This document shows, piece by piece, positions 31,304 to 49,581 of a DNA stretch of 64,000 nucleotides. The stretch spans positions 465,377-529,376 of the forward strand of contig DASXUQ010000005.1 in NCBI GenBank assembly GCA_036504735.1. The letters run 5' to 3'. A program made the position numbers and the translations under genes. Position 1 is the first letter of the stretch. Each line of letters begins with the position of its first letter. Below the pieces are notes generated by a model. It was not told the DNA's origin. It made no database searches and saw nothing but the letters and a program-made list of their open reading frames with translations. The DNA comes from a bacterium (GTDB lineage Bacteria; Electryoneota; RPQS01).

Positions 31304-31350
31304 GGAGCGGATGACGGGACTCGAACCAGCAACCTCCAGCTTGGGAAGCT
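31304..31350. repeat. Left attachment site: tRNA-Gly 3' fragment
   Basis: This is a 47-bp copy of the tRNA-Gly 3' half from the anticodon stem to the acceptor end, differing from the complete gene at one base (A at 31328 in place of C), which breaks a T-stem pair. It is inferred to be the original chromosomal 3' end cut off by integration, now free to drift. Confidence 0.9.
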
Positions 31351-31385
31351 AATCCCAACCTCGGCAAAATAGGTACTTACAGGAA

Positions 31386-31405
31386 ATGGTAGAATTATGG
31401 TAGAA
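31386..31405 (+). promoter_or_regulatory. Candidate integrase arm-type sites (two direct repeats)
   Basis: ATGGTAGAA occurs at 31386-31394 and again at 31397-31405, an 11-bp period, between the left attachment core and the integrase stop codon. A third copy, inverted, lies at 49411-49419 near the right core. Spacing and mirrored orientation fit arm-type sites of a tyrosine recombinase. Confidence 0.45.
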
Positions 31406-31408
31406 AGA

Positions 31409-32554
31409 TCATCCGGCGGGGAGCACCGTGAACCGTACACGGCCAATCAGGGCCGCATGGTTCTCCTTCGCAAAGCTCGTATAGTACTCGAGCGTGGTCT
31501 TGTCCGACTCGTGGCCGACCCACTGCATGACGAGTTCGAGGGGGATGCCCGCCGCGAGGCATTGAATGATGAACGTGCGCCGGAGGTCGTGCAGAGTGAG
31601 CGGTTCCAGCTTCGCCTCGGCCTGAACTTTCTTGTAAAGGTCGTCCAGGTGGCCGCTGCCTCGGTGCAGGTTCGAAATGTTGTCGAACAGGCGGGCTCGG
31701 GTCCGTGGCATGCGGTCCAGAATCTCCCGCAGCGGTTCGGCAATCGGGACCGCGCGGCTCTGCGCCGATTTCATGGCGGGGATGAGAATGTGATTGGCGG
31801 CGTAGTCTACCCATGACCATTCACAGGACAGAGCCTCGCCCTTTCGCATCCCGGTATAGAGCACAAAGGCCAGAAACCACGAAAGCGGTTCCCCGTTGTA
31901 CGTCACCTTCGCCGCCGAGGCCAGTAGCCGGCCGCATTCCTCGCCCGAATAGTACCGGATCGGCTTGGTGCGCTTGGCCTTCAGCCGTTTGATGGTGGGC
32001 GGCTTCCATCCGATAATCGTCCCGCAGAAGTTCAGGAACGCCCCGAGCCGTGTCATATGCCCGTTAATCGTGACCTGTGACAGGTCTCCAATCCGAACGC
32101 CGCGCCGGACCTTTCCCCGGTCCATGAGCCATGTCCGGAACTTCAACAGATCCGCCGCTGTCACGCTTTTGGCTGCCCGGTGAGCGTAGTTCACGAGAAA
32201 GAACTGAACGGTGCTCTGGTGAAGGTACAGCACCCGGGCGTCCGTCCCCTCACTGCGGCGGGTGTCCAAGTACCCCTTGGCCAGCCCTTCCACGCTCTCC
32301 GCGTTTAATTCCTCTTGGCGAAAGGGATCCTTTCCGCTGTCAACTATCTTCTGAGCAACCTTGACGGCCTCCATGGCCTTCTTGTAATTCGGCCATTTGG
32401 CGGGACTGGCGAACTCGCGGCCGTCTCCACCCTTCAAGTAGCGCGGCTCGGTTTCAATCCCGGTGTTGTACTTCTTGGGCGGGCCGTCCTTCAGACTGAC
32501 ACATCCGTACCAAAACCACCCCTTACTGAGCTTGCGGGCATACACCGAGGCCAT
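31409..32554 (-). CDS. int: Tyrosine recombinase / integrase
   Basis: The protein has 381 residues. An N-terminal arm-binding region (about 1-90) is followed by a SAM-like core-binding domain (about 90-190) and a catalytic domain. The full active-site set is visible: Arg237 (TGMRKGEAL), Lys262 (MKSAQ), His322 and Arg325 (LHDLRRTF), His348 (VGHES) and the Tyr nucleophile at 357/358 (EYYTSF). It is placed at the left end with its C-terminus facing the attachment core, the usual arrangement for tRNA-targeting integrases. It lies 73 bp downstream of the excisionase-like gene and is probably co-transcribed with it from the promoter at 33144. Confidence 0.97.
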   Translation of the reverse strand: MASVYARKLSKGWFWYGCVSLKDGPPKKYNTGIETEPRYLKGGDGREFASPAKWPNYKKAMEAVKVAQKIVDSGKDPFRQEELNAESVEGLAKGYLDTRRSEGTDARVLYLHQSTVQFFLVNYAHRAAKSVTAADLLKFRTWLMDRGKVRRGVRIGDLSQVTINGHMTRLGAFLNFCGTIIGWKPPTIKRLKAKRTKPIRYYSGEECGRLLASAAKVTYNGEPLSWFLAFVLYTGMRKGEALSCEWSWVDYAANHILIPAMKSAQSRAVPIAEPLREILDRMPRTRARLFDNISNLHRGSGHLDDLYKKVQAEAKLEPLTLHDLRRTFIIQCLAAGIPLELVMQWVGHESDKTTLEYYTSFAKENHAALIGRVRFTVLPAG

Positions 32555-32627
32555 TTGTCAACCTGTCCAGAAGGTTAAAATCTTCGCCCTTTAGAGGGAT
32601 ATCCCACAACGCCCGCGCCGCGCACCC

Positions 32628-32876
32628 CTACTCCGAGGGGCGGGAGGGTGAGCGCCGCTTGATGACTGCCGCTATTTCTGCCGAAGTCGTGCAGTCGTAG
32701 AAAGGATTCTGGCCCCTGAAATGCTCATCGAGCGAGGCTTGCGTGATACCCACGCGTCGCGCCGTGAGCTTAACCTTCGTCAGGTTCCCGGCCTTGACCA
32801 TGCGCTTGACAGTCGGGATACTGCACTTGAGTTGTCTGGCAGCTTCGGCTATGGTGACGGTAGGGGGGATGATCAT
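32628..32876 (-). CDS. Excisionase-like MerR-type helix-turn-helix protein
   Basis: The protein has 82 residues from the ATG at 32876 (MIIPPTVTIAEAARQLKCS). The helix-turn-helix TIAEAARQLKCSIPTVKRMV followed by a short wing (LTKVKLTARRVGI) is of the HTH_17/excisionase type. The position between a small regulator and the integrase supports a directionality-factor role. The longer frame adds 30 residues overlapping the upstream gene. It starts 4 bp after the stop of the RHH-like gene, so the two are likely coupled. Confidence 0.75.
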   Translation of the reverse strand: MIIPPTVTIAEAARQLKCSIPTVKRMVKAGNLTKVKLTARRVGITQASLDEHFRGQNPFYDCTTSAEIAAVIKRRSPSRPSE

Positions 32877-32880
32877 GGCG

Positions 32881-33111
32881 TCACTTGCTGGCACTGATGG
32901 GTCTGCCGGTGCGGAGGCGCGTGATTGGGCCGAACGACTTCCCTGCCTTTTTCTCCAGTTTGGCAACGTGGCCAGTTACCGCGCCTTCGATTATTTCCCC
33001 TGTGGTCAAGCCTGTGTGGAACGCTGCCCGCCGAATCTTCTCGATGGTTTCCGGTTGCAAGTACGTGGCGAACTTTTCCCGCGCGCCCGCAACCTTCTTC
33101 TTTTCAGTCAT
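32881..33111 (-). CDS. Small ribbon-helix-helix-like DNA-binding protein
   Basis: The protein has 76 residues from the ATG at 33111 (MTEKKKVAGAREKF), with GGAG 10 nt upstream. A basic N-terminus is followed by a strand-helix-helix pattern (FATYLQPETIEKIRRAAFHTG, then LTTGEIIEGAVTGHVAKLE) typical of CopG/ParG-like repressors. It is the first gene of the regulator-xis-int operon. Its own promoter contains an 18-bp motif found again over a second promoter in the element, so autorepression is a reasonable inference. The exact family was not confirmed. Confidence 0.6.
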   Translation of the reverse strand: MTEKKKVAGAREKFATYLQPETIEKIRRAAFHTGLTTGEIIEGAVTGHVAKLEKKAGKSFGPITRLRTGRPISASK

Positions 33112-33134
33112 TTCTGCTTGCTCCAATGCGTATA

Positions 33135-33152
33135 ACAGTGGATAATATACGA
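33135..33152 (-). promoter_or_regulatory. Candidate operator over the regulator-xis-int promoter (copy 1)
   Basis: The motif TCGTATATTATCCACTGT spans the -10 box and start point on the minus strand. The second copy at 42573-42590 differs at one base. Confidence 0.5.
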
Positions 33153-33172
33153 CAATTACCCCGCAAAAACAA
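33144..33172 (-). promoter_or_regulatory. Promoter of the regulator-xis-int operon
   Basis: TTGTTT, a 17-bp spacer and TATATT are seen on the minus strand. The expected start near 33137 leaves a leader of about 26 nt to the ATG at 33111. Confidence 0.6.
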
Positions 33173-33300
33173 GCCCGGTCAGTGGGCTACCATCATTTCG
33201 GAGACCGTCATCTCCCAATGCATAACTATTCATCATGATATCAAACAGTTGTGTGGAGCGGTAGAATGGTGGGCGAAAGCAGCCGCGAATAGGCGCAAGA

Positions 33301-33346: not shown

Positions 33347-36300
33347 TTATCGAATCAGCATCATCTTCTTGGCATCCACAAAGTTTCCGGCCTTGATACG
33401 ATAGACATACAGACCGGAGGCAACAGATGCTCCGGATGTGGTCCTGCTGTCCCACGTCAGACGGTAGACACCTGCAGGCCTCACTTCATCGATCAGCTTG
33501 GCCACTTCCTGTCCGAGGATGTTGAACACCTTCAATTCCACCCGTACCGCGTCCGGCACATCGAACCGGATTTCAGTATTGGGGTTAAAGGGATTCGGGT
33601 AGTTCTGGTAGAGGCGGTACTCTTTGGGGATCGCCGCACTCTTACCCTTGGCTGCCAGGGCCGGATTGTCCAGGATGCGGGCCAGTTCACTGACGCGCTG
33701 CACAAGCTCGTGGACATTTGCGCTGCGCACACGGGCATTGCGCGGGCGGACGGCTTGATCGTGGCGGTTGAAGAAATACACACCCATCGCGTCGGCCAAG
33801 GCCTGGATCGAATCGCGTGGCGTGCGTGCTGTTTCCATCAACTCCTCCAAACCTGCCAAAGCCTCAGCCGGTCGTCCTTCCTTAGCCTTTGCCACGAACG
33901 ACAGCCGCTGGGCAAGCTTTTTCTGCTCAGGGTCGACCAGTGAACGCGCCTGCTGGGAAAGGAAGGTGCTGACTGTCTGCTCGGCATCACCCTTGCGTGC
34001 CAACTTGGACAGATTCACCAAGGCTGCCGGTGCCAGTTTGGAGTCGGGATGATCGGCCAGAAATTTCATCGTCTCCCGTGCGGAAGCCTGCGTGTCACTC
34101 CGCTTACCCACGGCCTTAGCTTCACGCCATTGGGCAAGTTCCTCGTGATGCACCCGCAACAACTCCGCACGGTTCACCGACCGCTTTTTCAGGGAGGAAA
34201 GCGACTTGGTAACCGGCCCGGCGGGGGAGGCGGCTTTGGTTGTCTCCCCGCTGACTTTGCTGACCACAGGTGATGGAGACAGGACTACGCTGCTCGCACT
34301 CAGGCGCTTACTGTCCTCGGGGCGTGAGTCCGTTCCTGCCTGTTGTTCCTCACCGGGAATAATGAAGTTGTTGCCTTGCCCAAAGGAGGCGGTTCCGGCC
34401 TGATCACAACCGATGTAGGTAGCCAAGGACGTGTCCACCAGCCAGCGAGCGGGCGTCGTGGGCCAAAGGTAAGAGTAGAATGTGCTATCCGCCGGAGTAA
34501 TCGGGCTCCACGTATTCATTCCGATGTCCCAAGTATCCGTCGTATCGCCGGATTTCAGATAGCGGCCCGTGCCCGTGATCAAAGTAAATTCATTCTCACC
34601 GTCTCCAAGGTCCACTAAAGACGGATCGGCACTGTACAACAGCGTACCGCTGCTATCGGAGACTTGGCTGTGCGCACCGACCAAGTCCACTGTGCCGTCC
34701 TCGACCCAGACATCCGCCAGGCTGTCGCCGTTATCCGTGATCTCGGTGCATTCCAACGACAGGTTGCCGCCTTCCCAGTTCAGCAGGCCATAATTCTTGC
34801 TGCCGCGAATAATGGAATTGGAAATGCACAGATCCGTGTCGTTGTAATAACTGAACACGCCGACATCGCCGCTGTTGCGGATGTCGCAGTTCTCGATTTT
34901 CAGATAGCCTCCGTCCACCAGCGCCAGACCGGTCCCGAAGCCAAGGCCATTGGGGTCATTGACCCCACACCCGCCCATGTTTTCCAGCACTGAGTTTTTG
35001 ATGTAGCTGGAACTGTCCGTGCCCCAGCACCAGAGGCCTTCATCGAACGTGCGGAAGGTGCAGGAGTCGGCTTTGAAGATGGGACGGCGCGTGCTCCATT
35101 CATTAGGATTATCGTTGCTGTTGGACCAGCCTTGTCCTTGCAGGATGGCGTGCTTCAGATCCACGTAGCCGCAGATGGATTCCAGATTGACCCAATTGCC
35201 GGAACTGTCCCAGTTGAGGATCACCGGGTTATCGGCTTCGCCCTGTACGTACAGTTTGCCGCGTGGCTGCTGCCAGTCGAACCCTTCCACCATGAGATAG
35301 GCATCCGGAGCAAAACTCACCGTGGCGTTCTTGATGCCCGGATATGGCTTGATCACCAGCGTGCCGCCTTGGGCAATGTCAATCGTGCTATCCACACGGC
35401 AGGGTGCATACATCACCGTGCTGTCCGTGATCGCGTAGCGTGTCCACTTGCTTAAGGATGCGATCAAGTAGCTGATGCTATCCTGCACGGCCTCAAGCTC
35501 GCCGGCGCTGACAAAGTCGGCAGTATCCTGATTTTGCCGGAGCAGTTCCAGCGTCAAAAGGTCAATGTGCGCATCCACACGCTCCGTGTCCGTCACCGAG
35601 CTATCCCGCATCGCTTCCAGCACCGTTTGTGCGCCGTTTATGTCTCCCGCATAAGCCAGCGACCAGGCTTGTGCGCTGCGCGCTTCCCGCTTCGTGGGGC
35701 GGAAGGTGGCTGTGTCGGCCAACTGCTTGAAGTAGAGCGTGGACACAGAGGGAGTACTGGCGGACAAATCGGCAGTCAAAACTCCCTGAATACCCGACTG
35801 GCCAAATGTGGTGCGGCTGGCCGAGGAAATGGTGCTTTTGAAGCCGATCCGTGCGCTGTCATAGTCTGCTTTTGCCAGTTGATGGAGACCGTATCCAAAT
35901 GACGCGTCAGCCGGGGTAATGGCGGTGTCCACGTTTGCTGTAAAGCTGCAAAGACTCCAAGACGGGATAATGCCGTCGATCCATGCATCCGCAGGGACGT
36001 GATGATGCACGGTATCCGCGACCGAAGTTCCCCACGCGTTGTAGCGCCAGTCGCGCGTGACGGTGGTTTGGGCATCTGTTCGCGGGGCATAGATCCAAGG
36101 TTGGTTGGCAACACCGGTGATCAGGTTCCGCCCGTTGATCATAACGAGGGTGCTGAGGATTGCGCTGATTTGCACACTGCCCGAGTAATTGTCTATGATC
36201 CGATTGCCGCCCCAGAGCGGATCGAGGTAGCTCGCGTCGCCCATCACCACGGTCGAAGATAGGGCGCTGATCCCGCATCCTTTATTGCCGGAAATATTGC

Positions 36301-39300
36301 AGCACTTCAGTCTGGCGGTACTTCCGTATAGGGACAGTGCACCGGGAGCCTTGTGCAGGGGATCGATTTCTGTAGTAGCTCCGTTATCGGTGAAGGCGTC
36401 ATGGGTGAACTGCCCATCAGCGTTGGGCAGCAGACAGGCACCGTTGACACGGTTACGTGTTACCGTCGATCCGTCCATCGTCAGACTACTGCCGGAGCAC
36501 CAGATGCCGGTTGCGTTTTCCGAAAAGGCCGAACTGTCTATGTCCGCCCGAACCCCCGGCGTCATCGAGAGTCCGGTGCCGCAGCGGCTGAACGCACAAT
36601 GGTCTATGGTCGCCCAAGGATTGTCGAACGGGCTAAAGTCGTTATTCTCCAGCGAGAGCCCTACCTTCGCGCCCTGGATGTCCGCGTGGTGAAGCGAAAT
36701 CTGGCAACTGCTCGCCTGCTCAACCGTGATCCCGTCCCACAATTTGTCCGCGTTGGCAGGCTGCAAGCGTATCTTGATGCTGTCATTGCCCACAATATTC
36801 AAATGCCTGCCGGGAGAGGTTCCCTCAAAGCGAATCCCTTTGCCTTCCCAAAAGGTCACTGTTGCCACGCTATCATAGCGATACCGCCAAGTGGTTCCGA
36901 CCAGAAAGCTGTCGCGCAACGCGGCGATGTTCGGCTGGATGGTCAGGCTGCCGTTTCCCCGGATCACGATGTTGCGATGAAAATACTGCGGAGCAAAGAT
37001 CACGGCGCTCTCATTGTCAATAATCCAGTCCGTCGTGTCCGCAGGATAGAAGTGCACTAACTCCGCCTCGCCGGGCTGAAGAATCACTTTGATGATTCGC
37101 CGGTTTTGAGGAGCATGGTCAGCCAAGGTACTGCTGTCCGCCAAGACTCGATCAACACGATATTCCAGCTCCGGGTGGAGGACATCTTTGACCGTTAATT
37201 CCACCTGACGACTCTCGTCGTCCTGAGCGCGGCGATTTACAATCAGAAACCAGTAATCATCAGGTCCAACGTTGGGAGTCATGAAGCGGGAGACCTGGAC
37301 GTACGACGCGGCCCAGTTTTCCCACTCCGTGTATTGTTGAGTGTAGGAGTTCTTCTTCCGTGTTTCGATCAGCGCAACGTAGCTTGGCGGACTGGCATTG
37401 TTAAGATAGTCGCGCCCAACCCATGTACTGTCGCTGGAAAAGTCGTTGTAATTATAGCCAAACGCCCGGCTGGCATAGGTACGCACAAACCTCAGCGGCT
37501 CGAGCACCGGGGCGATGCGGTGGATGTCGTTGCAGACTTTTTTGGCCGCATAATAGCGAGGCGTCCGGAAAGCAAAGCGCGAATTGGCATTACAAAACGT
37601 GCCCACGGCGGTCGGAGAGTCATCAGATGCGCTCAAGCCCCACTCCATCAATCCTTGTGCGTAGTTGCCAAGCAAAGTGTCCGATGCGTTCCACAAGGGC
37701 TCCGACATTCCTTGATACCACATGATGCCGTCCACATCGCAGGCCACGGCCAGCCAGGCGCTGAGCTTCACTTCATTGCCGGATGGCTTTCGCAATTGCT
37801 CAACATAGTCCGGGGTCGTGGCATGATCTGCACCGCCCGCGATCAGCGCCCAGGACTTCGACCCGTGATCATGAACGAATTTCGTTTGCCGCAGCAGATC
37901 CATATCATAACGGTTGTCCCATGAAGCCGGAATCGGTGTGCCGTCATTCCGCGCCCTGTCAAGCACCCCCTTCTCTCCCCAAATATGTGCGTCAAACGTG
38001 GCTTGCAGCGACATCCAGCCTGCAAATTGATTTGGAACACCCTCATAGGTTCCACAAGGATTGGGGTCTATTGTCAAATGAACATATGGCGTGTCGGTTG
38101 CGGATGTCGTGTGCAGGAATTGGGTAATGGAACCCCAATTCTGGAGCGGATTACAGTGATCCCAGTTTCCGTAAATGTCGAACTCCTCCATTTTCACGGG
38201 TATCTTCACGCCGAGGCTGTCGGCATAGTAGTACAGCGAATCGGTTCCGCCAGTATTGCCATTGCGGTGCTCGTGCCCATTGATGAAGAAGGGCGGGGCA
38301 TCGTTATGCTGCAAGATCTGGTTCACCTTGGCATAGGACTCAAGCATTCGCGGATTAGGCTCATCAATGTACCAACTCTTCAGCGCACCTCCACTGGCTT
38401 GTGCCTCGTTACGGAAAGAACTCGCGATGAGTGTTTGGTAGGTTGTTGTGTCCGCCCCCGAGCGGAACAGGCGGTAATAGCCTTCGTCGCACGCTTCCAC
38501 GCTGTAAAGGTAGTACGTGTGGTGGCCAGTGTAGTCAATCTGGAACGCCACCGGGTTCGATCCCGGCCCCTTGGCCGCACGACCAAACATGTGCGGGCCA
38601 TCACGTAACCACCACTCATCGGCGGGAAGTGTGAGAATATTGAAACTGTCACCAAGCGCCACAAATTGACCCGAACCGGCAGAAGGTGTAATTGAATATG
38701 ACCAAGAAAAGAAGTATCTCGGGTCGGGTCCGACATCCCCGAGCCGGATTGGAATCCCCGGATAGCGGACATACTTGACGTCGGTATGTGCAAGGGCACT
38801 GCCGCCATAGAGCTTGCGGTCATAGTCTGTAATGCCCACAATCCAGTAAAAAATAGCTACGGTATCCGTTGGCAGGCTGTTCGGGCCGTCGGCTTCAATC
38901 TTCTGGGTGAGTTTGAAGTGCATCGGCATCACGCAATCGTTCACCTGCCAGTTATCGCGCCACCGTGCCTCCCGCGCTCCCCAACCGCCCCACGAGCTGA
39001 AGCCACCGCCGGGTTTCCAAAATGGACCGGGTCCAGCAGACGGATCAACCGCGAGGACGCGCTGATTGATCTCTGTAGCCGATATGTCCGCTCGCACGCG
39101 AGATGTGATCGTTCCCCAGTTTTTCAGCGAGTCACAGTACTCGTACCAATCCGTATAGGCAGTATGTGTGAACAAGGCCTTACTCTCGACGTACTTAAAC
39201 ATCTGATCGGGCCAGTGGTCGGTCATAACGTGCATTGACATGCCGTTGACGCGGCCATAATCAGACGGCTCGTACCAAACGTAGAGATTGGTCATGCCCA

Positions 39301-39565
39301 TCTCCTGCCACCACTGCAATGCCTGATCATTGTTGGCAATCGCGTTTTGCCAGGCTGTCCAATCCGCCGGAGTGGGCAGAGAATCCTGTCCGTTGTTATC
39401 GCAGTCTCCCAGTCGGGGTGAGTGTTGTCCGCTATACCGGAAATAGCGCACGATGGAAATGGGATCATTGTAGCCACTGATGTCAAAGCCGTACACAATC
39501 GTGTAACTGCATCCTCCCAGCAATACACACCAAAGCGCCATCCAGCACAGTCTGCGCGAAATCAT
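33347..39565 (-). CDS. Giant surface protein: glycosidase-like N-terminus, beta-helices, T9SS sorting domain
   Basis: The protein has 2,072 residues with a strong GGAGG 8 nt before the ATG. The start MISRRLCWMALWCVLLGGC ends in a lipobox (LGGC). Residues about 25-850 look like a TIM-barrel glycosidase with a trailing beta-domain, rich in Trp and Tyr ('DVDGIMWYQGMSEPLWN'), but I cannot name the family. Two right-handed parallel beta-helix regions follow (about 880-1200 and 1400-1650), then a helical TPR-like linker (about 1760-1960). The last about 90 residues are a type-A T9SS sorting domain (NYPNPFNPNTEIRFDVP ... ASGLYVYRI). A lipobox together with a T9SS domain is unusual. It is second gene of the cargo operon, 27 bp after the beta-propeller gene, inside the integrative element. 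Confidence 0.85.
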   Translation of the reverse strand: MISRRLCWMALWCVLLGGCSYTIVYGFDISGYNDPISIVRYFRYSGQHSPRLGDCDNNGQDSLPTPADWTAWQNAIANNDQALQWWQEMGMTNLYVWYEPSDYGRVNGMSMHVMTDHWPDQMFKYVESKALFTHTAYTDWYEYCDSLKNWGTITSRVRADISATEINQRVLAVDPSAGPGPFWKPGGGFSSWGGWGAREARWRDNWQVNDCVMPMHFKLTQKIEADGPNSLPTDTVAIFYWIVGITDYDRKLYGGSALAHTDVKYVRYPGIPIRLGDVGPDPRYFFSWSYSITPSAGSGQFVALGDSFNILTLPADEWWLRDGPHMFGRAAKGPGSNPVAFQIDYTGHHTYYLYSVEACDEGYYRLFRSGADTTTYQTLIASSFRNEAQASGGALKSWYIDEPNPRMLESYAKVNQILQHNDAPPFFINGHEHRNGNTGGTDSLYYYADSLGVKIPVKMEEFDIYGNWDHCNPLQNWGSITQFLHTTSATDTPYVHLTIDPNPCGTYEGVPNQFAGWMSLQATFDAHIWGEKGVLDRARNDGTPIPASWDNRYDMDLLRQTKFVHDHGSKSWALIAGGADHATTPDYVEQLRKPSGNEVKLSAWLAVACDVDGIMWYQGMSEPLWNASDTLLGNYAQGLMEWGLSASDDSPTAVGTFCNANSRFAFRTPRYYAAKKVCNDIHRIAPVLEPLRFVRTYASRAFGYNYNDFSSDSTWVGRDYLNNASPPSYVALIETRKKNSYTQQYTEWENWAASYVQVSRFMTPNVGPDDYWFLIVNRRAQDDESRQVELTVKDVLHPELEYRVDRVLADSSTLADHAPQNRRIIKVILQPGEAELVHFYPADTTDWIIDNESAVIFAPQYFHRNIVIRGNGSLTIQPNIAALRDSFLVGTTWRYRYDSVATVTFWEGKGIRFEGTSPGRHLNIVGNDSIKIRLQPANADKLWDGITVEQASSCQISLHHADIQGAKVGLSLENNDFSPFDNPWATIDHCAFSRCGTGLSMTPGVRADIDSSAFSENATGIWCSGSSLTMDGSTVTRNRVNGACLLPNADGQFTHDAFTDNGATTEIDPLHKAPGALSLYGSTARLKCCNISGNKGCGISALSSTVVMGDASYLDPLWGGNRIIDNYSGSVQISAILSTLVMINGRNLITGVANQPWIYAPRTDAQTTVTRDWRYNAWGTSVADTVHHHVPADAWIDGIIPSWSLCSFTANVDTAITPADASFGYGLHQLAKADYDSARIGFKSTISSASRTTFGQSGIQGVLTADLSASTPSVSTLYFKQLADTATFRPTKREARSAQAWSLAYAGDINGAQTVLEAMRDSSVTDTERVDAHIDLLTLELLRQNQDTADFVSAGELEAVQDSISYLIASLSKWTRYAITDSTVMYAPCRVDSTIDIAQGGTLVIKPYPGIKNATVSFAPDAYLMVEGFDWQQPRGKLYVQGEADNPVILNWDSSGNWVNLESICGYVDLKHAILQGQGWSNSNDNPNEWSTRRPIFKADSCTFRTFDEGLWCWGTDSSSYIKNSVLENMGGCGVNDPNGLGFGTGLALVDGGYLKIENCDIRNSGDVGVFSYYNDTDLCISNSIIRGSKNYGLLNWEGGNLSLECTEITDNGDSLADVWVEDGTVDLVGAHSQVSDSSGTLLYSADPSLVDLGDGENEFTLITGTGRYLKSGDTTDTWDIGMNTWSPITPADSTFYSYLWPTTPARWLVDTSLATYIGCDQAGTASFGQGNNFIIPGEEQQAGTDSRPEDSKRLSASSVVLSPSPVVSKVSGETTKAASPAGPVTKSLSSLKKRSVNRAELLRVHHEELAQWREAKAVGKRSDTQASARETMKFLADHPDSKLAPAALVNLSKLARKGDAEQTVSTFLSQQARSLVDPEQKKLAQRLSFVAKAKEGRPAEALAGLEELMETARTPRDSIQALADAMGVYFFNRHDQAVRPRNARVRSANVHELVQRVSELARILDNPALAAKGKSAAIPKEYRLYQNYPNPFNPNTEIRFDVPDAVRVELKVFNILGQEVAKLIDEVRPAGVYRLTWDSRTTSGASVASGLYVYRIKAGNFVDAKKMMLIR

Positions 39566-41116: not shown

Positions 41117-41140
41117 GTTCGATCCCCGTGTCAAGCAATT

Positions 41141-41753: not shown

Positions 41754-42509
41754 CTACTTACGCTTCTTCGGCGATCCGCTTTCTGTAGCGTAGGCATACG
41801 CTCCCGATCCGAGGTCGTGAAAATGCGTGATGCGTTCGCCGGGCAGCAATCGAGCGCGCACCTCGGCGGGAATCTTGGCCTGCTCTTCGGCCTCACGTTC
41901 GGCCTTTTCCCGCTCCTTTGCCGTGAACCGTTCAATGAATTCCTGCACCTTGGGCGGGTACGGCCGGCCCTTGCGGGCTACTTCGGGGAAGTGGTACTCC
42001 AGCGCGAACTCCAGCCCGTAACGCCGCGCCAGATCCGCAAGCGTCTCTATGTTATCGTCCACTTCAACAACTACGGCTCCCTCGGCGCTTTCTGCCCATA
42101 TGAACGCAGCGCCTTCCATGTCTCCCGCAAATGCGAACGCGGTCGGGGTCTCCCCGTACCGGTTGTTTCCGGGGTAACTGAGCGCGTGGATCGTGCCTTT
42201 GGCAATCGTGGTAAGCAATCCGTCCACGTCGTCGCCTGTCACCCGGAGGCTCTGCGCCGCACGCGTCTGCTCAGTACATTCCACGCGCCACGGCTTGCCG
42301 TCCGCCCGAACCACTTCCGCTGTCCACTGCACGCCGATTCTGAGCTTGAACCCAAGTTGACGCAACTGGTCAAAATCGTCCGGTTGATTGTAGCCAGTTT
42401 CGCCATTCACCTGAACATCAAGCGTCGCGCCGAACAAAGCGGCAAGCAACGCCTTGGGGGTCTGCTCCACGGTGAAATCGCCGGGAGTCCCTACGGTTAC
42501 CTTCGACAT
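41754..42509 (-). CDS. Element-encoded protein of unknown function (251 residues)
   Basis: No family is recognised. The ATG has a strong ribosome-binding site (AAGGAGAGGATT). The protein is soluble and mixed alpha/beta in character; a Lys/Glu-rich helix (about 192-215, 'ERFTAKEREKAEREAEEQAK') probably forms a coiled coil, and the tail is basic (SPKKRK). It is the last gene of the block before the cargo operon and has its own well-formed promoter 190 bp upstream, so its expression may be controlled separately from the replication genes. Confidence 0.7.
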   Translation of the reverse strand: MSKVTVGTPGDFTVEQTPKALLAALFGATLDVQVNGETGYNQPDDFDQLRQLGFKLRIGVQWTAEVVRADGKPWRVECTEQTRAAQSLRVTGDDVDGLLTTIAKGTIHALSYPGNNRYGETPTAFAFAGDMEGAAFIWAESAEGAVVVEVDDNIETLADLARRYGLEFALEYHFPEVARKGRPYPPKVQEFIERFTAKEREKAEREAEEQAKIPAEVRARLLPGERITHFHDLGSGAYAYATESGSPKKRK

Positions 42510-42874: not shown

Positions 42875-43348
42875 TCACGCGCGCGAAGAGTGCCGCGAAT
42901 GGTATCGCTTGAATGCTTTTACGAGGTACGTGCCATTCGCCGCGTCAACCCAGTCCACTCCATGTTTCTGCAAATACTTATCAATTACCCACGCTCTCGG
43001 ATCTCTGGCGTCGCCCCTGCGCCCTGCCAATTGGCGCTCAATCTCGATTTTCACGCGCAATAGGCCTAAGATAATCATCTGTTGATGCTTGGCAAAGTAC
43101 CACGACGCTGCAAAGGCAGAGTCTTGCGAGATCCATCTCCGCAGCGTGCGCGTGCCGGCTTTCACCATGGCGGCGATTTCGATGTCCGTGTGGAGTGGGC
43201 AGTTGGTTCGCGCGTGAATCGCGACCTCCTTCATGAAAGCGATCCTCTGCCGCGACCTCGTGGCGTTCCCGCGCGACGGTGGTGCTGCTTCAATGTAGAT
43301 ATGCAGGAAGGGCGTTAGCGGGAAAACCGGGTTTTGAACAATTGGCAT
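42875..43348 (-). CDS. Element-encoded protein of unknown function, HTH-like centre
   Basis: The protein has 157 residues; the true start may be an internal ATG near residue 39 (MKEVAIHARTN), since the first 38 residues look unstructured and no clear ribosome-binding site precedes 43348. The centre (DIEIAAMVKAGTRTLRRWIS) reads like a helix-turn-helix, followed by basic helices. This layout is loosely reminiscent of small phage terminase or phage DNA-binding proteins, but the match is too weak to call. It begins 26 bp after the 270-residue gene. Confidence 0.5.
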   Translation of the reverse strand: MPIVQNPVFPLTPFLHIYIEAAPPSRGNATRSRQRIAFMKEVAIHARTNCPLHTDIEIAAMVKAGTRTLRRWISQDSAFAASWYFAKHQQMIILGLLRVKIEIERQLAGRRGDARDPRAWVIDKYLQKHGVDWVDAANGTYLVKAFKRYHSRHSSRA

Positions 43349-43374: not shown

Positions 43375-44187
43375 CTATACGAGTGGGGGACGTCGTTGCC
43401 GTTCTACTCGGTCAGGCACGACCTCCGTCACCACTGACCGGCCAGATCGGACCGTGACAGAAGTGCCACTGTCTTTGACACCTCCTTGGACAGTGATCAT
43501 GTATCTTCCGCCCGGAAGGTGCTCGGGCGTGGTTAGGAGTACATCGTAGAAGTGCGGCCCTCCCTGGACGCTGAACTCCTGCTCTTCACCCACCCAATGA
43601 TAACTGGCGTCGGTGATCGATGTTATGCCCGCACGCAGAAACACACTCACTTTGTCCGCCGCACTGCTTTCAATCTCTAACGTAGCCTGCACACGCAATG
43701 CTTTTCCGCCGCTCGTGGTTACGGTGGTCGTCAGGTCGGAAAGGGTCGTGTAACTCGTGCTGCTGATGATAACCGGTTCATCGAGTGGACTTCCGTCGTA
43801 ACTGTGCTGCACCAGATTCCCGATGCCCGTGCTGCCTGAGATTAGCTTGGGTTGCCCTTCTTCCCATGGTGTGACGGTAACGGCGAAAGCCTGATTGCCG
43901 ACAACCATAACCATCTCGTGGGAGGTGTCTGCTTGCCCCGCACGGTTGCGCGCTACGAAGAGCTTGCTTCCTCCGCGCTGTATGACATTGGGGGGACCAC
44001 TCAATACCTCCTGATGAAGTCCGCGCCGAGCCCCTGGCTGCGGATTGCGCCTCACCACTTGCTGCACCGCAAGGTGGAAGTCAGGATCACTCCTCAACAG
44101 TCCGAGTACCGCTGCCCTGAATTCGCTTTGCGTGGTGAACGTGATGGTTCCGGTTTCTTTCTTTCCGGATTCGCTGCCTTGTCCCAT
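43375..44187 (-). CDS. Element-encoded protein of unknown function (270 residues)
   Basis: A good AAGGAG lies 6 nt before the ATG. The N-terminus is short and charged; from about residue 85 the sequence turns beta-rich and low in Cys, with Thr/Ser/Val repeats (SSTSYTTLSDLTTTVTTSGG) and a sandwich-like end (GGRYMITVQGGVKDSGTSV). There is no signal peptide or membrane segment. The beta-rich half could belong to a fibre-, tail- or shell-like protein, but no family is recognised. It lies between the replication block and the 157-residue gene. Confidence 0.65.
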   Translation of the reverse strand: MGQGSESGKKETGTITFTTQSEFRAAVLGLLRSDPDFHLAVQQVVRRNPQPGARRGLHQEVLSGPPNVIQRGGSKLFVARNRAGQADTSHEMVMVVGNQAFAVTVTPWEEGQPKLISGSTGIGNLVQHSYDGSPLDEPVIISSTSYTTLSDLTTTVTTSGGKALRVQATLEIESSAADKVSVFLRAGITSITDASYHWVGEEQEFSVQGGPHFYDVLLTTPEHLPGGRYMITVQGGVKDSGTSVTVRSGRSVVTEVVPDRVERQRRPPLV

Positions 44188-44317: not shown

Positions 44318-44689
44318 TCAAGCCTCCGCGCTCTCCTGCCCAATCCGCCGCCGCCTTCCTCGCCGGCGCGTGGGCGGATCGTCCTCGTCAGTGTCGATCT
44401 CGACGGGGTCCGCGCTTCTGACAAAGGGCTTGGCGTCGGCCATGACCGCCGCTGTGATTTCGGAAATCGACTCCGCGAGGCTGGGGTCCGCTTTGGCGGC
44501 GCGCGCGCGGTCTATCCGCTGCTGCATAAACCCGTCCACGGACCAACGCTCAAATCTATACTCTTCGCCGTGCACGCCTCGCCCTGGAATCGTCAACCAT
44601 ACAAACAGGTGACGGTGCGCCAACACCCACGCGGGTTTGACACCAAGCTTTTGAGCTACTTCCGCTGCTGTATACGGTGACAGGTTCAA
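44318..44689 (-). CDS. Small MerR/excisionase-like DNA-binding protein
   Basis: The protein has 123 residues and needs a TTG start; no ATG is available near the N-terminus. A helix-turn-helix at the front (YTAAEVAQKLGVKPAWVLAH) and a wing-like EEYRFERWSVDGFM fit the HTH_17/excisionase group. The C-terminus is acidic (EIDTDEDD) and then very basic (RRRGRRRR). It begins 15 bp after the DnaB-N-like gene ends and is probably in the same operon. It may be a second directionality or replication-control factor. Confidence 0.6.
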   Translation of the reverse strand: MNLSPYTAAEVAQKLGVKPAWVLAHRHLFVWLTIPGRGVHGEEYRFERWSVDGFMQQRIDRARAAKADPSLAESISEITAAVMADAKPFVRSADPVEIDTDEDDPPTRRRGRRRRIGQESAEA

Positions 44690-44704: not shown

Positions 44705-45016
44705 TTAGAACGGCAATTCTTCGAAGTCCAGAGGCGGGAGGTCTGTCGGTTCCGGTTCGCCGGTGATGATGCTTTGGACATATGCGCGGCTCGGCATGCC
44801 ATCGCGGGCACTGGCCTTTGAAAGCTGCTGCATGATGTTGTCCAGTGTGGGTGCAACCCGTTGGGCGGATAAGTCGCTCAGTGCGCGCCAGAGGTGACGG
44901 TGGCGATTATCCAGCCAGCGCGCGCCGGAGATGAGCGCGGCTGGAATGGACCGTCCGGAGATGACAGCGTGAAGGGCGTCGCGCTCGATCTGGTCTTGTG
45001 GTTTTCGTTTTGCCAT
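44705..45016 (-). CDS. Free-standing DnaB-N-terminal-domain-like protein with SSB-like tail
   Basis: The protein has 103 residues. Residues about 10-85 follow the pattern of the DnaB helicase N-terminal domain (short helix 'RDALHAVISG', then HRHLWRALSDL aligned with DnaB's HxxIFxAI, then VAPTLDNIMQQLSK aligned with VDLxTVAEQLK). There is no ATPase part. The last residues DFEELPF copy the acidic C-terminal tip of single-stranded-DNA-binding proteins ([DE][DE]LPF or IPF). The gene starts 22 bp after the element's dnaB, which ends in a similar tip. I infer a helicase- or primase-interacting modulator. Confidence 0.6.
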   Translation of the reverse strand: MAKRKPQDQIERDALHAVISGRSIPAALISGARWLDNRHRHLWRALSDLSAQRVAPTLDNIMQQLSKASARDGMPSRAYVQSIITGEPEPTDLPPLDFEELPF

Positions 45017-45038: not shown

Positions 45039-46478
45039 TTAGAACGGGAGGTCTTCCGTGTCTTCTTCCGATTCCGGTGGGTAGGAATGCGCCGCCGGTG
45101 CGGGAATTGAATCCGCGCCGATAGAGGTAAAGCGGGTAAACTGCCGCTCGAAGTTCAGCCAGAATGAGCCGGTATCACCCTGGCGATTTTTTGCCACGAT
45201 CACCTCGGCCATTCCCGCTATGCTTCGCGGTTGTCCGTAAATGGTGACAGTCTTATCGCTCTCCTTCAAGCGCTTTGTGTATAGCTCTGGGCGGTAGATG
45301 AGCATTACGACGTCTGCATCCTGCTCTATTGCTTCCGAGTCGCGCAAATCGCTCAGTTGCGGCCGGGGGTGGGTATCGCGGCCTTCAGATGATCGGTTAA
45401 GCTGCGCGAGGCAGAGGAGCGGACAGTTCAATTCCTTAGCCAGAGCCTTCAGGTGGTTGGAGCACAGGGTAATATGCTCGTATCCCTTGACGTAGCCCTT
45501 AGATCGCTGAATGAGCGCCAGATGGTCAAGAATCAACAGTTGTGCGCCACCGTCACGGACTGCTCGCTCGGATGCCGCGCACACTTTCTCGATGCTTCCG
45601 GGCCGATCATCGTAAAGAATGGGTAAGTCTTGCAACTCGTCGAATGCCCGGAGAATCTTCTCCTGCTCCGACTTCCACAGAGCCTCGTTTCGCTGGCGGA
45701 GGCGGTTGAGTGGGATGTTGGTTTCATCGGCCACGAGCCGCTGTGTGATCTGTTCGACCGGCATTTCCAAGGATTGCACAAAGATGCGCTTGCCGCGCTG
45801 CGCCTGCCGCTTGGCTATGTTCATCGCGAGGGCGGTCTTGCCGTTCGATGGCCGCGCGCCGAGCACATACAACTGCCCCGGTTCAAACTCGCCGATGAAG
45901 CTGTCCATTTGAGGGAACCCAGAATAAATAGCGTCCGCCGGGCTTCCGAGGTGCCGGCGCATCAGATCCTCATAGGTCCGGTGACTGGCCTCCTTTTGGG
46001 AAATCAGATTCCCTTGGATCGAGACGGTTTGTATCTCGCGGATCCGCGTGAGCACGTCCGCTGCTATGGCTTCGGGCTTGGCACCTGGCGTATACGCTGC
46101 CCTCGCCACGTCGCTCCCGATTGCAATCACATTGCGTAACAGCGATTTCTCACGCACCGCTCTGGCATAGTGCAACACATTGGCGGCGCTGGGTAGGCCT
46201 TCGCACAATTCAGCGAGGTAGAGCGGTCCGCCCACTTCTTCCAGTTGCGCCGATGCCTTGAGTTGCTCAGCAACCGTTCGCATTTCAACGGGGTCTTGGC
46301 GGTGGTGCAGCGCCAGTATGGCGTCGAAAATCATGCCGTGCGCCAGCTTATAGAACGCGGCGGAGTCTTCGATGATGTCTAACACAGCGCGAAACTGACT
46401 CTCATCCAGCATCAGAGCGCCCAATAGGTCACGTTCCAGTTCGAGGGAGTGAGGCGGGGTTTTGAGGGGAGGCGTCAT
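45039..46478 (-). CDS. dnaB: Replicative DNA helicase DnaB
   Basis: The protein has 479 residues. The N-terminal all-helical domain (about 1-110, 'LERDLLGALMLDESQF', 'HGMIFDAILAL') is followed by a RecA-type motor with Walker A GARPSNGKTALAMN, Walker B LLILDHLALI and the DSEAIEQDADVVMLIYR segment near the arginine finger. It unwinds DNA at the fork as a hexamer. The ATG overlaps the stop of the replisome-organiser-like gene as ATGA. The extreme C-terminus reads EDTEDLPF, resembling the SSB acidic tip, which is not a usual feature of DnaB. It belongs to the element's replication module and is distinct from any host copy. Confidence 0.96.
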   Translation of the reverse strand: MTPPLKTPPHSLELERDLLGALMLDESQFRAVLDIIEDSAAFYKLAHGMIFDAILALHHRQDPVEMRTVAEQLKASAQLEEVGGPLYLAELCEGLPSAANVLHYARAVREKSLLRNVIAIGSDVARAAYTPGAKPEAIAADVLTRIREIQTVSIQGNLISQKEASHRTYEDLMRRHLGSPADAIYSGFPQMDSFIGEFEPGQLYVLGARPSNGKTALAMNIAKRQAQRGKRIFVQSLEMPVEQITQRLVADETNIPLNRLRQRNEALWKSEQEKILRAFDELQDLPILYDDRPGSIEKVCAASERAVRDGGAQLLILDHLALIQRSKGYVKGYEHITLCSNHLKALAKELNCPLLCLAQLNRSSEGRDTHPRPQLSDLRDSEAIEQDADVVMLIYRPELYTKRLKESDKTVTIYGQPRSIAGMAEVIVAKNRQGDTGSFWLNFERQFTRFTSIGADSIPAPAAHSYPPESEEDTEDLPF

Positions 46479-47356
46479 ACATCATCTCCGATGGCAAGGC
46501 GCACGTCGCCCTGATAGATCCGCTCAGGTTGTTCCAGGCTTGGTGCAGGTGTGCCTTCCGGCCCGTCGCCGGTGGTCCAGTGCTCCGGTTTCGTGTTGCC
46601 GAGCCAGTTGTTCAGGAATCGAGTGCGGGGAACATGGTTCTTGTCGGGATTGATCTTCTTGGCTTCTACTCTACCTATAAACCACTGCTCAAACCGCTCG
46701 GCTTGCCGGAGCATGCACTGAAACCCGATCCGCTGGCCTTCGCGCATGATGTCGGTACTCCAATCGTCTAAGGTGACCTCTTGGTAAGCTTTGATCCCGG
46801 TGCGGTGTCCGATTCGGCTCAGGATCTCGACTACTTGGGCAGGGATGTCAGCGGTGTTTCCACCAGGTTTTTGGTTATAGGTTATAGGTTCATAGTTAGA
46901 GGAATTCTGTCCGTTGAGGGCCATTTCTTCCGCCCCTAATGCGCCGGAAGTCGCCCATTTACCTTCACCACCCCGACTCTCGGCCCGCTTCCGTTTGATT
47001 TCGGCAGCCAAAGGTTGATGGACGTCCTGCTCGTGAACCGTTCCGTCCTCATGCAGGAACCCACTGGCCTTGAGCAATCGGTAGAATTCCTCCGGTTCCC
47101 GTTCCCACCAACAGAACCTCGCGAGGGGAGCGATGTCCCGCTCATCAAGCTGGGCGTTCATGGCACAATTGGCGTTCACGAAATTGAAGTACCGGACTAT
47201 GTGGGTCCATGCTGCGCGATCGTCGCAACCCGACAAACACGAGAAAGTAAGGAACTTGCGGTTGCAACAGAGGAATGTATCTACGTTGAACCGTGGAATA
47301 GACTCAACTCGCGGCCTGCCCTTCTTCTTCTGGGTTTCTCCCCCGCCGCTGCTCAT
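46475..47356 (-). CDS. Replisome-organiser-like protein (DnaD/phage O-type)
   Basis: The protein has 293 residues. Residues about 25-130 look like the winged-helix start of phage replication initiators: a run on cell size and cell state ('AQLDERDIAPLARFCWWEREPEEFYRLLKASGFL' is the middle of it) followed by a charged linker. The C-terminal half (about 170-250) carries a helical block (EVTLDDWSTDI ... FLNNWL) like the DnaD/phage replisome-organiser tail. Such proteins open the origin and load DnaB. Context is the best support: its stop overlaps dnaB's start and its start overlaps the 82-residue gene, both as ATGA. Confidence 0.65.
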   Translation of the reverse strand: MSSGGGETQKKKGRPRVESIPRFNVDTFLCCNRKFLTFSCLSGCDDRAAWTHIVRYFNFVNANCAMNAQLDERDIAPLARFCWWEREPEEFYRLLKASGFLHEDGTVHEQDVHQPLAAEIKRKRAESRGGEGKWATSGALGAEEMALNGQNSSNYEPITYNQKPGGNTADIPAQVVEILSRIGHRTGIKAYQEVTLDDWSTDIMREGQRIGFQCMLRQAERFEQWFIGRVEAKKINPDKNHVPRTRFLNNWLGNTKPEHWTTGDGPEGTPAPSLEQPERIYQGDVRLAIGDDV

Positions 47357-47601
47357 GCGGCCTCCTGCTTTGGCTGCGCCGGCCGATCGTCGCTTGTTTC
47401 AATTCCCGCGTTCCTAAGCGACACCATCAGCTCACCTCGGCACTTGGTTAGCGCCAGAGCCGCGCCTTGCCAGTAGTCGCGCCGGTCCGGTTCTGATTCA
47501 GCCTTGCGGAGATAGTGCCTCCGTTCCGCGCTCCACTTCAACCTGAGCCTCTGGCCTTCCACCACTAACTTCTCAACATCTGGAACCGTCTGCCCTTCCA
47601 T
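47353..47601 (-). CDS. Small protein of unknown function heading the replication operon
   Basis: The protein has 82 residues with AAAGGA 6 nt before the ATG. It is charged and mostly helical (EKLVVEGQRLRLKWSAERRHYLRKAE), without recognised family. It is the first gene of the block 82-residue protein / replisome organiser / dnaB / DnaB-N-like / HTH, which overlap or nearly touch. Confidence 0.65.
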   Translation of the reverse strand: MEGQTVPDVEKLVVEGQRLRLKWSAERRHYLRKAESEPDRRDYWQGAALALTKCRGELMVSLRNAGIETSDDRPAQPKQEAA

Positions 47602-47661: not shown

Positions 47662-47664
47662 GGA

Positions 47665-47682: not shown

Positions 47683-47814
47683 AGAAACCTGTATGATTAT
47701 GGCTGTCCCGGCCACCTACCTTCTGTGTCTGTTCGGTTCCCCGACCGACTTACAACAATGTAGTAGATGGCGCAGGACGCAAAGGGGTATGCAGGGGGGT
47801 AATTTGCGGGAAAA

Positions 47815-49299
47815 TCAGGGATCGAGGTAATACTGCCCCTTTTTGTTCCGTCCTTCAATCGCTTCGCCCCCTTTTAGGAGCGTTTTCCATGCTGGGTGGC
47901 CCCGAAACAGTTCTTTCATGCCTTTCTTTTTCGTCCCCGTCTGTTCAATGATGTAGTCCCCACTCACGAAAAGGGATCCATTATCAAGAGCTGCGCGCAG
48001 AATCCTCATCGCCGCCGCCTGCTCATTTGAGAACGGTTCCCAAATATCCGGTTGGGTGCCGTCCTGTCGAATCCAGTTCACCGCCGAGCAGTTACCAGAC
48101 CAATACAGCCCCGGGCTTCGTGGTCCAAGGGGAGTGTTTTCTGAGGAGGTTTCCTGTGACACGCTGACCGTAATCTCCCGCCCCTTAGCACACGTCGCCA
48201 GATCTGCAAGTGAACCGGCGGATCTCTCAAATGCCCGCATCAGATCTGACAGGTTGCCGGGGTCAGTATACACATTGACCTGTATCCGCGAAGAAAAATT
48301 CGTGGATTCAACTCCGTCGGCAAATGTACGCAGGGACTTCAACCGAACGGACTCACATACCGCACCGAACAAGGTCGCCGCTTCGAAGCCCGCCGAGGCG
48401 ACAAACCTGTCAAAAGGCCATTCAAGTGACACTTCGAAGGTCCCATCACCGCCTACAAATCTCCACACACGCGCCAGTTTCTCCCAAATGTCACCGATCT
48501 CGACATTGTTCAGCACCGTGTCCATAATGGATACGAAATCAAGAAGCGAACACAGCCCGCCAGGGCGTAGATCAACACCAGCGCTCGCCTTCGGGTTGTT
48601 GCGTACTGCGCGGTCGTAAAGCAATTCGACCTGCATGTAGAAATCAATGTCCTCCTTCTGCATCTCGTGATCCCGCAGAATCGCCATGCAGCGGCCGAAC
48701 AGGGGGAACGCGTCCTTCCGCAACAGTGCCTGATACACCTCCTCCAAAATTGACCTTTTGACTTCAAATAGTTTTTCACGGGAGGATTCAATCCGATCTG
48801 CGTCGCCACCGCGAACAAAACTGACCCTTGAAGCATCCTTGTCAGTGCCCGTGACCGCAAGGCTTTCAAGTAGGCCTTCGCAGAACGGCCACGTTGAGAC
48901 TGCGCCCATGTCAGGTTCGCGGGTATAGCTTAGCCTTCGCGAGTCGTGCCTGATATTCGAAAGCACTGTGCCGCTTGCGACAACTTCTCTCCACTGGTAC
49001 CGGATGCTTGTTTGTCCGCCCATGTCCACCTCAACCGAACATGGAAGGCGCGTCGGGTATAGGTTGGCAAGGTGATTGTCCAGATAATCGCATGGGTAGA
49101 AGATGGAGCCGCGCAATCCTTTCTCTTGTAAGATGTCTCGGTTGCGTAGTTGGAAGATCAGGAATCCTGAGAGCAATTTCGCCATGTCATCGAGACGTAT
49201 CAATGGGAAACCGCCATCCAGCAGATCCCTCAGTGCCGCCTCGTAACCTGGCTCCAAGTGCACCGTCTGCGCGTATCGAAGCTGCGGATGATTCTTCAT
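47815..49299 (-). CDS. Large unknown protein beside the right attachment site
   Basis: The protein has 494 residues from the ATG at 49299 (MKNHPQLRYAQTVHLEPGYE); a TTG at 49347 would add 16. There is no signal peptide or membrane segment. The C-terminal about 65 residues (from about 'AAAMRILRAALDNGSLFVSGDYI' to the end) have a winged-helix-like shape ending RNKKGQYYLDP. The rest, about 420 residues of alpha/beta character, has no recognised motif. It is the first gene inward from the tRNA, transcribed apart from the replication operon because a terminator follows it. That is a position often taken by immunity, regulatory or defence genes, but the sequence itself does not reveal the job. Confidence 0.7.
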   Translation of the reverse strand: MKNHPQLRYAQTVHLEPGYEAALRDLLDGGFPLIRLDDMAKLLSGFLIFQLRNRDILQEKGLRGSIFYPCDYLDNHLANLYPTRLPCSVEVDMGGQTSIRYQWREVVASGTVLSNIRHDSRRLSYTREPDMGAVSTWPFCEGLLESLAVTGTDKDASRVSFVRGGDADRIESSREKLFEVKRSILEEVYQALLRKDAFPLFGRCMAILRDHEMQKEDIDFYMQVELLYDRAVRNNPKASAGVDLRPGGLCSLLDFVSIMDTVLNNVEIGDIWEKLARVWRFVGGDGTFEVSLEWPFDRFVASAGFEAATLFGAVCESVRLKSLRTFADGVESTNFSSRIQVNVYTDPGNLSDLMRAFERSAGSLADLATCAKGREITVSVSQETSSENTPLGPRSPGLYWSGNCSAVNWIRQDGTQPDIWEPFSNEQAAAMRILRAALDNGSLFVSGDYIIEQTGTKKKGMKELFRGHPAWKTLLKGGEAIEGRNKKGQYYLDP

Positions 49300-49410
49300 A
49301 CATTCGCCCGAATTGGTTTGGTATCTTCGTCCCGGGTAGGTGTCCAATCTGCCCGGAGCCGCAGTCCTCAGCGGTACGGCTGCCGCACGTCAAATCGTTA
49401 GACGTCTAAG

Positions 49411-49419
49411 TTCTACCAT
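49411..49419 (-). promoter_or_regulatory. Candidate integrase arm-type site (right)
   Basis: ATGGTAGAA on the minus strand, 116 bp inside the right attachment core and inverted relative to the two left copies at 31386 and 31397. Confidence 0.4.
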
Positions 49420-49486
49420 TTTTTCTACGGGCCGAGAATCAGGGAGAATTAGCCCGATTCATTAGACTTGCACAATCGACCCATAT

Positions 49487-49518
49487 GCAGAAAAACAGCC
49501 CAGTAAGAGGCTGTTTTT
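49487..49518 (-). terminator. Terminator after tRNA-Gly, element-derived
   Basis: On the minus strand AAAAACAGCC and GGCTGTTTTT form a 10-bp stem that ends in a U-run, 16 bp after the repeat. It resembles the hairpin beside the left attachment site. Confidence 0.8.
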
Positions 49519-49534
49519 GCTTGAGGCTTACGTC

Positions 49535-49581
49535 GGAGCGGATGACGGGACTCGAACCCGCAACCTCCAGCTTGGGAAGCT
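49535..49581. repeat. Right attachment site inside tRNA-Gly
   Basis: This is the 47-bp copy that completes a functional tRNA. It is inferred to have come with the element (attP-derived 3' half) and to have restored the gene on integration. The right boundary falls in the anticodon stem. Confidence 0.9.

Follow-up and report, generated by a model that had tools for sequence, protein, structure and literature searches.

A virion-less integrative element at tRNA-Gly(CCC), probably satellite-like, carries cargo proteins bearing type IX sorting signals in an uncultured bacterium of the Electryoneota

The window analysed here is a stretch of 64,000 nucleotides from a bacterium of the Electryoneota, and it contains an 18.2-kb block of minus-strand genes that is integrated in a tRNA-Gly(CCC) gene and bounded by a 46/47-bp direct repeat. 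The locus raises the question of what kind of mobile element encodes an integrase, a replication module and two proteins with type IX secretion system (T9SS) signals, with no recognised virion genes. To our knowledge, the phages and satellites of these uncultured bacteria are almost undescribed. We consider that the block probably belongs to a satellite-like family of site-specific, virion-less integrative elements and carries T9SS surface cargo, rather than being a decayed prophage.

The att copy distal to the tRNA (31304..31350) is identical at 46 of 47 positions to the other copy (49535-49581). An intact tRNA-Gly(CCC) gene predicted by ARAGORN (49535..49608, minus strand) has this second copy as its 3' 47 nt. 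No other direct repeat in the region came close in length to this 47-bp one with its single mismatch; the runner-up measured 31 bp at 77%. All credible genes lying between the att copies are on the minus strand, as are all genes given below, and the reading frames were all open and mostly tightly packed. Both the 47-bp repeat at tRNA-Gly and the uniform coding direction had been described in an earlier note made from the sequence alone, and both were confirmed. The element is called intact here in the sense of open reading frames and two att copies; its excision is a prediction.

The integration genes comprise a tyrosine integrase of 381 aa (31409..32554; PF00589 E=2e-20, phrog_1 E=3e-44) and an excisionase-like HTH gene, xis (32628..32906, start tentative), which scored 29.9 bits against the NCBIfam family TIGR01764 (cut-off 28.8) and also matched HTH_17 and phrog_66. 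A small RHH/Arc-like regulator of 81 aa (32881..33126) showed a weak match to phrog_2639, and its homologue in G001, a genome of another genus, lies directly upstream of an integrase gene (E=2e-4). The HTH_17/AlpA-like regulator hth123 (44318..44689, 123 aa; HTH_17 E=1e-4, below the cut-off) has homologues in prophages of G007 and G010, as well as in the G001 element.

The replication module contains a DnaB-family replicative helicase of 479 aa (45039..46478), whose N- and C-terminal domains were matched in Pfam at E=4e-27 and 1.5e-70 (PF03796 for the latter; phrog_19 E=9e-92). Profile matches in Pfam, PHROGs and NCBIfam thus support the integrase, excisionase-like and DnaB genes as originally named. 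The same note had assigned DnaB a replisome-organiser-like partner. The gene in question, rep293 (46475..47356, 293 aa), is a putative replication-initiation partner whose homologues within the same bacterial family lie in two complete prophages and at two further loci linked to an integrase. It gave no significant match in Pfam, PHROGs or NCBIfam, and the label therefore rests on its adjacency to DnaB and on its prophage homologues. A profile match of rep293 to a cytochrome trimer in the PDB was taken as spurious. A 103-aa protein (44705..45016) resembles the DnaB N-terminal domain (PF00772 E=0.009, below the cut-off).

Four further genes could not be placed in a family and had no homologue in the genomes searched: u251 (41754..42509, 251 aa), u157 (42875..43348, 157 aa, helical) and u270 (43375..44187, 270 aa), without a significant match, and u82 (47353..47601, 82 aa), without any match. 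The resemblance of u157 to a small terminase was seen by eye alone and found no support from any tool; its AlphaFold2 model (pLDDT 52) was unusable and Foldseek was uninformative. A match of the u270 profile to a KEOPS subunit in the PDB was regarded as spurious. Searches of IMG/VR with rep293, u510 (described below), u270, u157 and the N-domain of the larger cargo protein returned no relatives, and a tblastn comparison with 50,697 phage records gave no significant match for the element proteins.

The earlier statement that the element has no recognised virion or transfer genes held in the profile scans. No virion, lysis or relaxase family was significant among the element proteins in Pfam, PHROGs and NCBIfam, the two T9SS proteins having been scanned against Pfam and DnaB against Pfam and PHROGs. 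Relaxase and type IV secretion families, by which ICEs and mobilisable elements are recognised, were likewise absent from the element proteins searched with Pfam and NCBIfam. A proposed search for helper packaging genes in the same bin came back empty: neither Terminase_6N nor relatives of the G007 terminase were found in the element's genome, and the analysis identified neither a helper phage nor a packaging gene or cos/pac site.

Comparison of the same site in related genomes provided insight into the origin of the element. A gene for an S9 peptidase adjoins the same tRNA-Gly in six genomes (G001, G003, G004, G006, G007 and G009), and in all of these except G001 the junction had no integrase and no element gene beside it. 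The sole other occupied tRNA-Gly site seen was that of G001, which holds a virion-less relative with an integrase 56% identical to the one described here and a homologous first gene, u510. The unoccupied sites and this second virion-less element bear out the view of a single element at tRNA-Gly. A search of relatives for the integrase and dnaB pair had been proposed; the G001 relative has the site and the related integrase but carries a Prim-Pol/D5/DUF5906 primase module in place of DnaB; it also has a type I restriction-modification system in the cargo slot and the RHH homologue. A second att was not found at the right end of the G001 element. A capsid-protein-like fragment beside its integrase was at first considered as a satellite capsid gene. 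That reading was set aside because the stretch homologous to G002 begins no more than 10 bp from the integrase end and no second att is present.

The gene u510 (47815..49347, 510 aa) is the first gene counted from the tRNA. Its homologues were found in G001, G022, G028 and G213, with an integrase 2-16 kb away in each; G022 and G028 combine u510 with an integrase and a primase, and G213 with an integrase. Virion-less islands marked by u510 recur in other families and lineages. Judged by gene content, u510 is the hallmark of an integrase-linked island family, most members of which have a primase or helicase. From one att to the other, the backbone of this family is best read as u510, a replication module, an HTH regulator, cargo, an xis or RHH gene and an integrase, with a cargo slot that appears to be swappable. 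In the related elements this slot was occupied mostly by defence-type genes. The u510 gene could also serve as a marker in the search for satellite-like elements of this phylum.

In the reading that we favour, the element would be excised by the integrase and Xis, replicated by rep293 and DnaB, and would travel in particles made by another phage. An alternative is that the block descends from a temperate phage at tRNA-Gly whose structural half was deleted, so that genes for integration, replication and lysogenic conversion are what is left. Homologues of rep293 and hth123 do occur in complete prophages found elsewhere in the family, and a T9SS pair of this kind lies on the integrase side of the G007 prophage, as it does here. 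The open and mostly tightly packed reading frames speak against such decay, as does the recurrence of u510-marked virion-less islands in other families. Moreover, the G001 element, from another genus, occupies the same site by means of a related integrase, has no virion genes either and differs in its replication module and cargo, which favours a satellite-like family over a deletion remnant. The earlier note had held that a full phage with the same attachment pair would reveal a remnant; none using this att site was found in related genomes, and the two complete prophages that were found sit at tRNA-Glu and tRNA-Asp. We therefore regard a deletion remnant as quite unlikely. An integrative plasmid-like or mobilisable element that conjugates in trans or is transduced by chance, and is not a phage satellite, is also unlikely. 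It would be in keeping with an own DnaB and initiator-like gene, the lack of a packaging gene and a Terminase_6N search of the genome that showed no helper prophage, but a relaxase or transfer family was absent from every element protein searched, and the replication and regulator genes are common to phages of the family.

Among known systems, the satellite-like element resembles PICIs (PMC6092414) in having an att-specific integrase with xis (here the 47-bp tRNA-Gly repeat, PF00589 and TIGR01764), an AlpA-like HTH, its own replication module and cargo, as well as in lacking structural and lytic genes at a size of ∼15-18 kb, close to the 18.2 kb observed. With regard to the PICI AlpA/primase block, the AlpA-like HTH match is weak, and DnaB and rep293 replace the PICI primase; no terS, stl or capsid-remodelling gene was detectable, no PICI-specific orthologue was established, and the likeness is one of gene content. 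PICIs are further marked by att sites that prophages never occupy; here one other occupied tRNA-Gly site, that of G001, was available for comparison. PICMI and P4-like satellites (PMC10803314) share with the G001 sister element the combination of integrase, AlpA-like HTH and primase-helicase, as well as a hotspot for defence cargo. The present element, however, has DnaB in place of a DUF3987/DUF5906 or alpha primase-helicase, is larger, is located at tRNA-Gly and not at fis, and showed no known P4-type genes.

The cargo consists of two genes 27 bp apart, which were read as an operon. The upstream gene encodes a FG-GAP beta-propeller protein of 513 aa (39593..41134; FG-GAP 4e-15, Por_Secre_tail 8e-11, above the Pfam cut-off). 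The downstream gene encodes a 2,072-aa protein (33347..39565) with a signal peptide, an N-domain (aa 22-860), a right-handed beta-helix and a FlgD/Por C-terminal signal (FlgD_ig 3e-7, above the cut-off; Por_Secre_tail 4.5e-4, below it). The signal peptides of both proteins were read by eye, and the T9SS translocon component SprA is present in the host genome (PF14349 E=2e-34). Given these Sec and C-terminal signals and the SprA-bearing host, both proteins should reach the cell surface through the T9SS of the host, and the type IX sorting first proposed for this cargo is upheld. The N-domain may be a GH42-like barrel: its PDB profile match to a GH42-type beta-galactosidase is weak (E=0.048 over 50 residues), and an AlphaFold2 model from four sequences (pLDDT 32.5) was unusable. 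Such enzymes combine a barrel fold with a pair of catalytic acids, and D401/E402 and E461 are invariant in eight homologues.

The satellite and prophage conversion-slot cargo usually described consists of intracellular defence, toxins and resistance. The earlier note took the T9SS pair for an undescribed type of satellite cargo, a claim that has to be revised. A divergent homologous pair occupies an integrase-side position in the complete 42-kb tRNA-Glu prophage of another genus (G007), the element's own genome has two more divergent operon copies within a 62-kb island at tRNA-Lys, and T9SS cargo on a phage has already been reported (PMC7468147). From this distribution, the operon of a FG-GAP gene and a ∼2,050-aa gene is not satellite-specific, and the lineage's phages and their relatives seem to trade host surface proteins.

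Copies without an integrase in the stretch read were also found (C14, G006 and G001:C7), so the presence of the operon need not mean a phage-related role. The earlier note had asked whether the cargo operon is kept at this tRNA-Gly locus in strains without the integrase; operons with no integrase nearby were found at other loci and not at this one. These copies, together with tandem arrays (G010:C6, G003 and G001:C7), would fit a host locus for polysaccharide use or adhesion that is passively carried, apart from phage biology; the T9SS-sorted glycoside hydrolases of Cryophage, which were interpreted as a possible addition to the enzymatic repertoire (PMC7468147), point the same way. This account of the cargo is compatible with a satellite-like element and has a substantial chance of being correct, somewhat short of even. 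Against it stand the recurrence of the operon in different mobile elements (tRNA-Gly element, tRNA-Lys island and tRNA-Glu prophage), mobile-element copies that form no single clade, and the mostly defence-type slot-mates in related elements.

More tentatively, and with considerable doubt, the operon might be a standard cargo traded among the phages, satellites and islands of the lineage, acting outside the cell to exclude phages or remodel receptors, from the slot that in relatives houses intracellular defence systems. In the reading of the element that we favour, the propeller and the ∼2,070-aa barrel/beta-helix protein, exported by the host T9SS, would probably alter the surface glycans or receptors of the carrier, which could exclude competing phages or gain an advantage in adhesion or polysaccharide use. 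If the operon does alter phage adsorption, it would represent a surface-level defence module in these uncultured bacteria.

One precedent for phage-borne T9SS cargo was found, the 76-kb Bacteroidetes phage Cryophage, in which variable gene products, including glycoside hydrolases, have T9SS C-terminal signals and a hijack of the host T9SS was proposed (PMC7468147). The signals are alike in the two cases. In contrast to Cryophage, the cargo here is a conserved two-gene operon that occurs, in another lineage, on three kinds of element: a virion-less island, the large tRNA-Lys island and a tRNA-Glu prophage. In this lineage, virion-less and phage elements repeatedly carry proteins that would be displayed through the host type IX system. 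The tRNA-Lys island also carries NERD-UvrD, SIR2-STALD and ThiF/Ubl-like genes, the ThiF/Ubl families having been scanned on its C9 copy.

The window comes from a 1.01-Mb contig of genome G000 (4.16 Mb, 98% complete). The element in it spans 18.2 kb, with ends at 31304 and 49581 and a direct repeat of 46/47 bp at both edges. The right repeat copy is the 3' part of a tRNA-Gly(CCC), which is intact. From the tRNA, the minus-strand gene order is u510 (510 aa), an 82-aa protein, rep293 (a putative 293-aa replication-initiation partner of DnaB), DnaB, a DnaB-N-like protein, an HTH_17 protein, unknowns of 270, 157 and 251 aa, a 513-aa FG-GAP protein, a 2,072-aa N-domain/beta-helix protein, an 81-aa RHH-like protein, an excisionase and an integrase. 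For the element proteins, Pfam, PHROGs and NCBIfam gave no credible match to virion, lysis or relaxase families. The earlier note's description of a repeat-bounded tRNA-Gly element with no recognised virion genes is upheld.

The same site was compared among the 39 genomes available for the phylum. Six further genomes from the same bacterial family have the S9 peptidase gene adjoining this tRNA-Gly(CCC). In G003, G004, G006, G007 and G009, no integrase or element gene was observed by the tRNA within the stretch read (about 1.5-9 kb), and the site is therefore unoccupied as far as the data reach. In G001:C13 the site holds an element with an integrase 56% identical to that of the window element, a u510 homologue (29% identity across its length), a homologous RHH gene and an HTH gene. 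This relative carries a Prim-Pol/D5 primase-helicase where the window element has rep293 and DnaB, and a type I R-M system and DUF4062/HATPase protein where that element has the T9SS operon. Its right att was not found, and near the contig end its integrase abuts a phage capsid-protein-like fragment. This fragment (G001:C13:129865-130407, L080) starts at the integrase end and is homologous to the N-terminus of a prophage capsid fusion protein; a fragment 87% identical to it lies at G002:C187:404-946 (L046), with T9SS genes nearby.

Two complete prophages from the same bacterial family, those of G007 and G010, have homologues of rep293 and the HTH gene, which shows that replication and control genes are common to the element and phages. 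Among 291 genomes, a profile of u510 found homologues in only five (G000, G001, G022, G028 and G213). The G022 island carries u510, an 803-aa primase-like protein, xis-like and int genes and tRNA-Lys, with SNF2/HKD and type IIG genes as neighbours; that of G028 has u510, a primase-helicase, xis-like and int, and that of G213 u510, two unknowns and int. These are read as a family of virion-less islands, and their recurring order of u510, replication, HTH-xis and int is the main argument against a prophage remnant. The satellite-like part of the earlier interpretation is the best reading, while membership of the PICIs, named as the nearest class, is not established. Such an element would excise from the tRNA-Gly site, replicate and transfer with the aid of a helper; searches of G000 for Terminase_6N and for relatives of the G007 terminase found no resident helper.

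The T9SS cargo had been regarded as a novelty of one satellite. The pair is indeed present on the element, but it also occurs on a tRNA-Lys island and a tRNA-Glu prophage, so that what is new is a T9SS surface operon recurring across three att-bounded elements of different type. In each of these the FG-GAP gene is followed on the same strand by a gene for a protein of about 2,050 aa, the reading frames being 9-36 bp apart as called. The 62-kb island (G000:C10, 5075-67714, L037-L040) is bounded by a 49/49-bp tRNA-Lys repeat (5075-5123 and 67666-67714) and holds two T9SS pairs, its own integrase, a DUF5906 helicase, SIR2-STALD, NERD-UvrD and a ThiF/Ubl-like operon, whose families were called on a near-identical operon of C9. 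A third, internal att copy (43 bp, 7960-8002) suggests that the island is composite. It also contains a second tmRNA gene, 82% identical to that of C9 and with the same tag peptide. The 42.5-kb G007 prophage has a perfect 42-bp tRNA-Glu repeat at its edges and large terminase, portal-like and capsid genes, and its T9SS pair directly adjoins the integrase. Its large protein is homologous to the 2,072-aa protein through the beta-helix (33%) and, by profile comparison, in the N-domain (probability 99%, E=4e-18).

Members of the N-domain family are found mainly in this bacterial family; the records of relatives that carry the N-domain name Calditrichaeota, candidate division KSB1 or unclassified bacteria. 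The MGE-borne copies did not group in a tree of ten FG-GAP proteins; with only one well-supported inner branch and a very long G007 row, the tree gives no single MGE clade and no number of recruitments. The pair is read as a travelling operon. The copies in C14, G006, G001:C7 and G010:C6 had no integrase within the stretch read. The C14 pair (G000:C14:30484-36450, L042), whose N-domain is divided between two reading frames, sits between PDZ-protease-like and NUDIX genes that adjoin each other in G011 and G012, and is read as an insertion that no integrase adjoins; there is an integrase at C14:10867, a distance of about 20 kb.

Both cargo proteins carry C-terminal signals of Por/FlgD type and, as judged from the sequence, signal peptides, and SprA is encoded in G000; predicted export by the host T9SS is therefore well supported, and the proteins would be displayed on the cell surface. 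In the N-domain, D401, E402 and E461 are invariant, and 50 residues weakly match a beta-galactosidase of GH42 type, which makes a glycan-binding or glycan-cleaving surface protein plausible. A defence role, by which the cargo may affect phages, is suggested by the neighbourhood, because the corresponding slot in related elements has R-M or other defence-type genes; in the G010 prophage, an HSDR_N protein takes the int-side position of the G007 pair. A published precedent for phage-borne T9SS-sorted cargo is Cryophage (PMC7468147); its authors' interpretation was that the phage hijacks the T9SS of its host, either for secretion of variable surface proteins or for additional enzymatic capability.

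In G010:C6:29334-39366, G003:C194 and G001:C7, FG-GAP genes alternate in tandem arrays with short N-terminal copies of the large protein, and these resemble partial duplicates or silent cassettes. A small operon encoding a ThiS-like protein recurs by T9SS-signal or large surface-protein genes in G000:C9 (L008), G000:C10 (L039-L040) and G010:C10 (L045). On C9 and C10 it also has ThiF and weakly JAB-like proteins, and the C9 ThiF protein matches PADLOC E1-E2 models.
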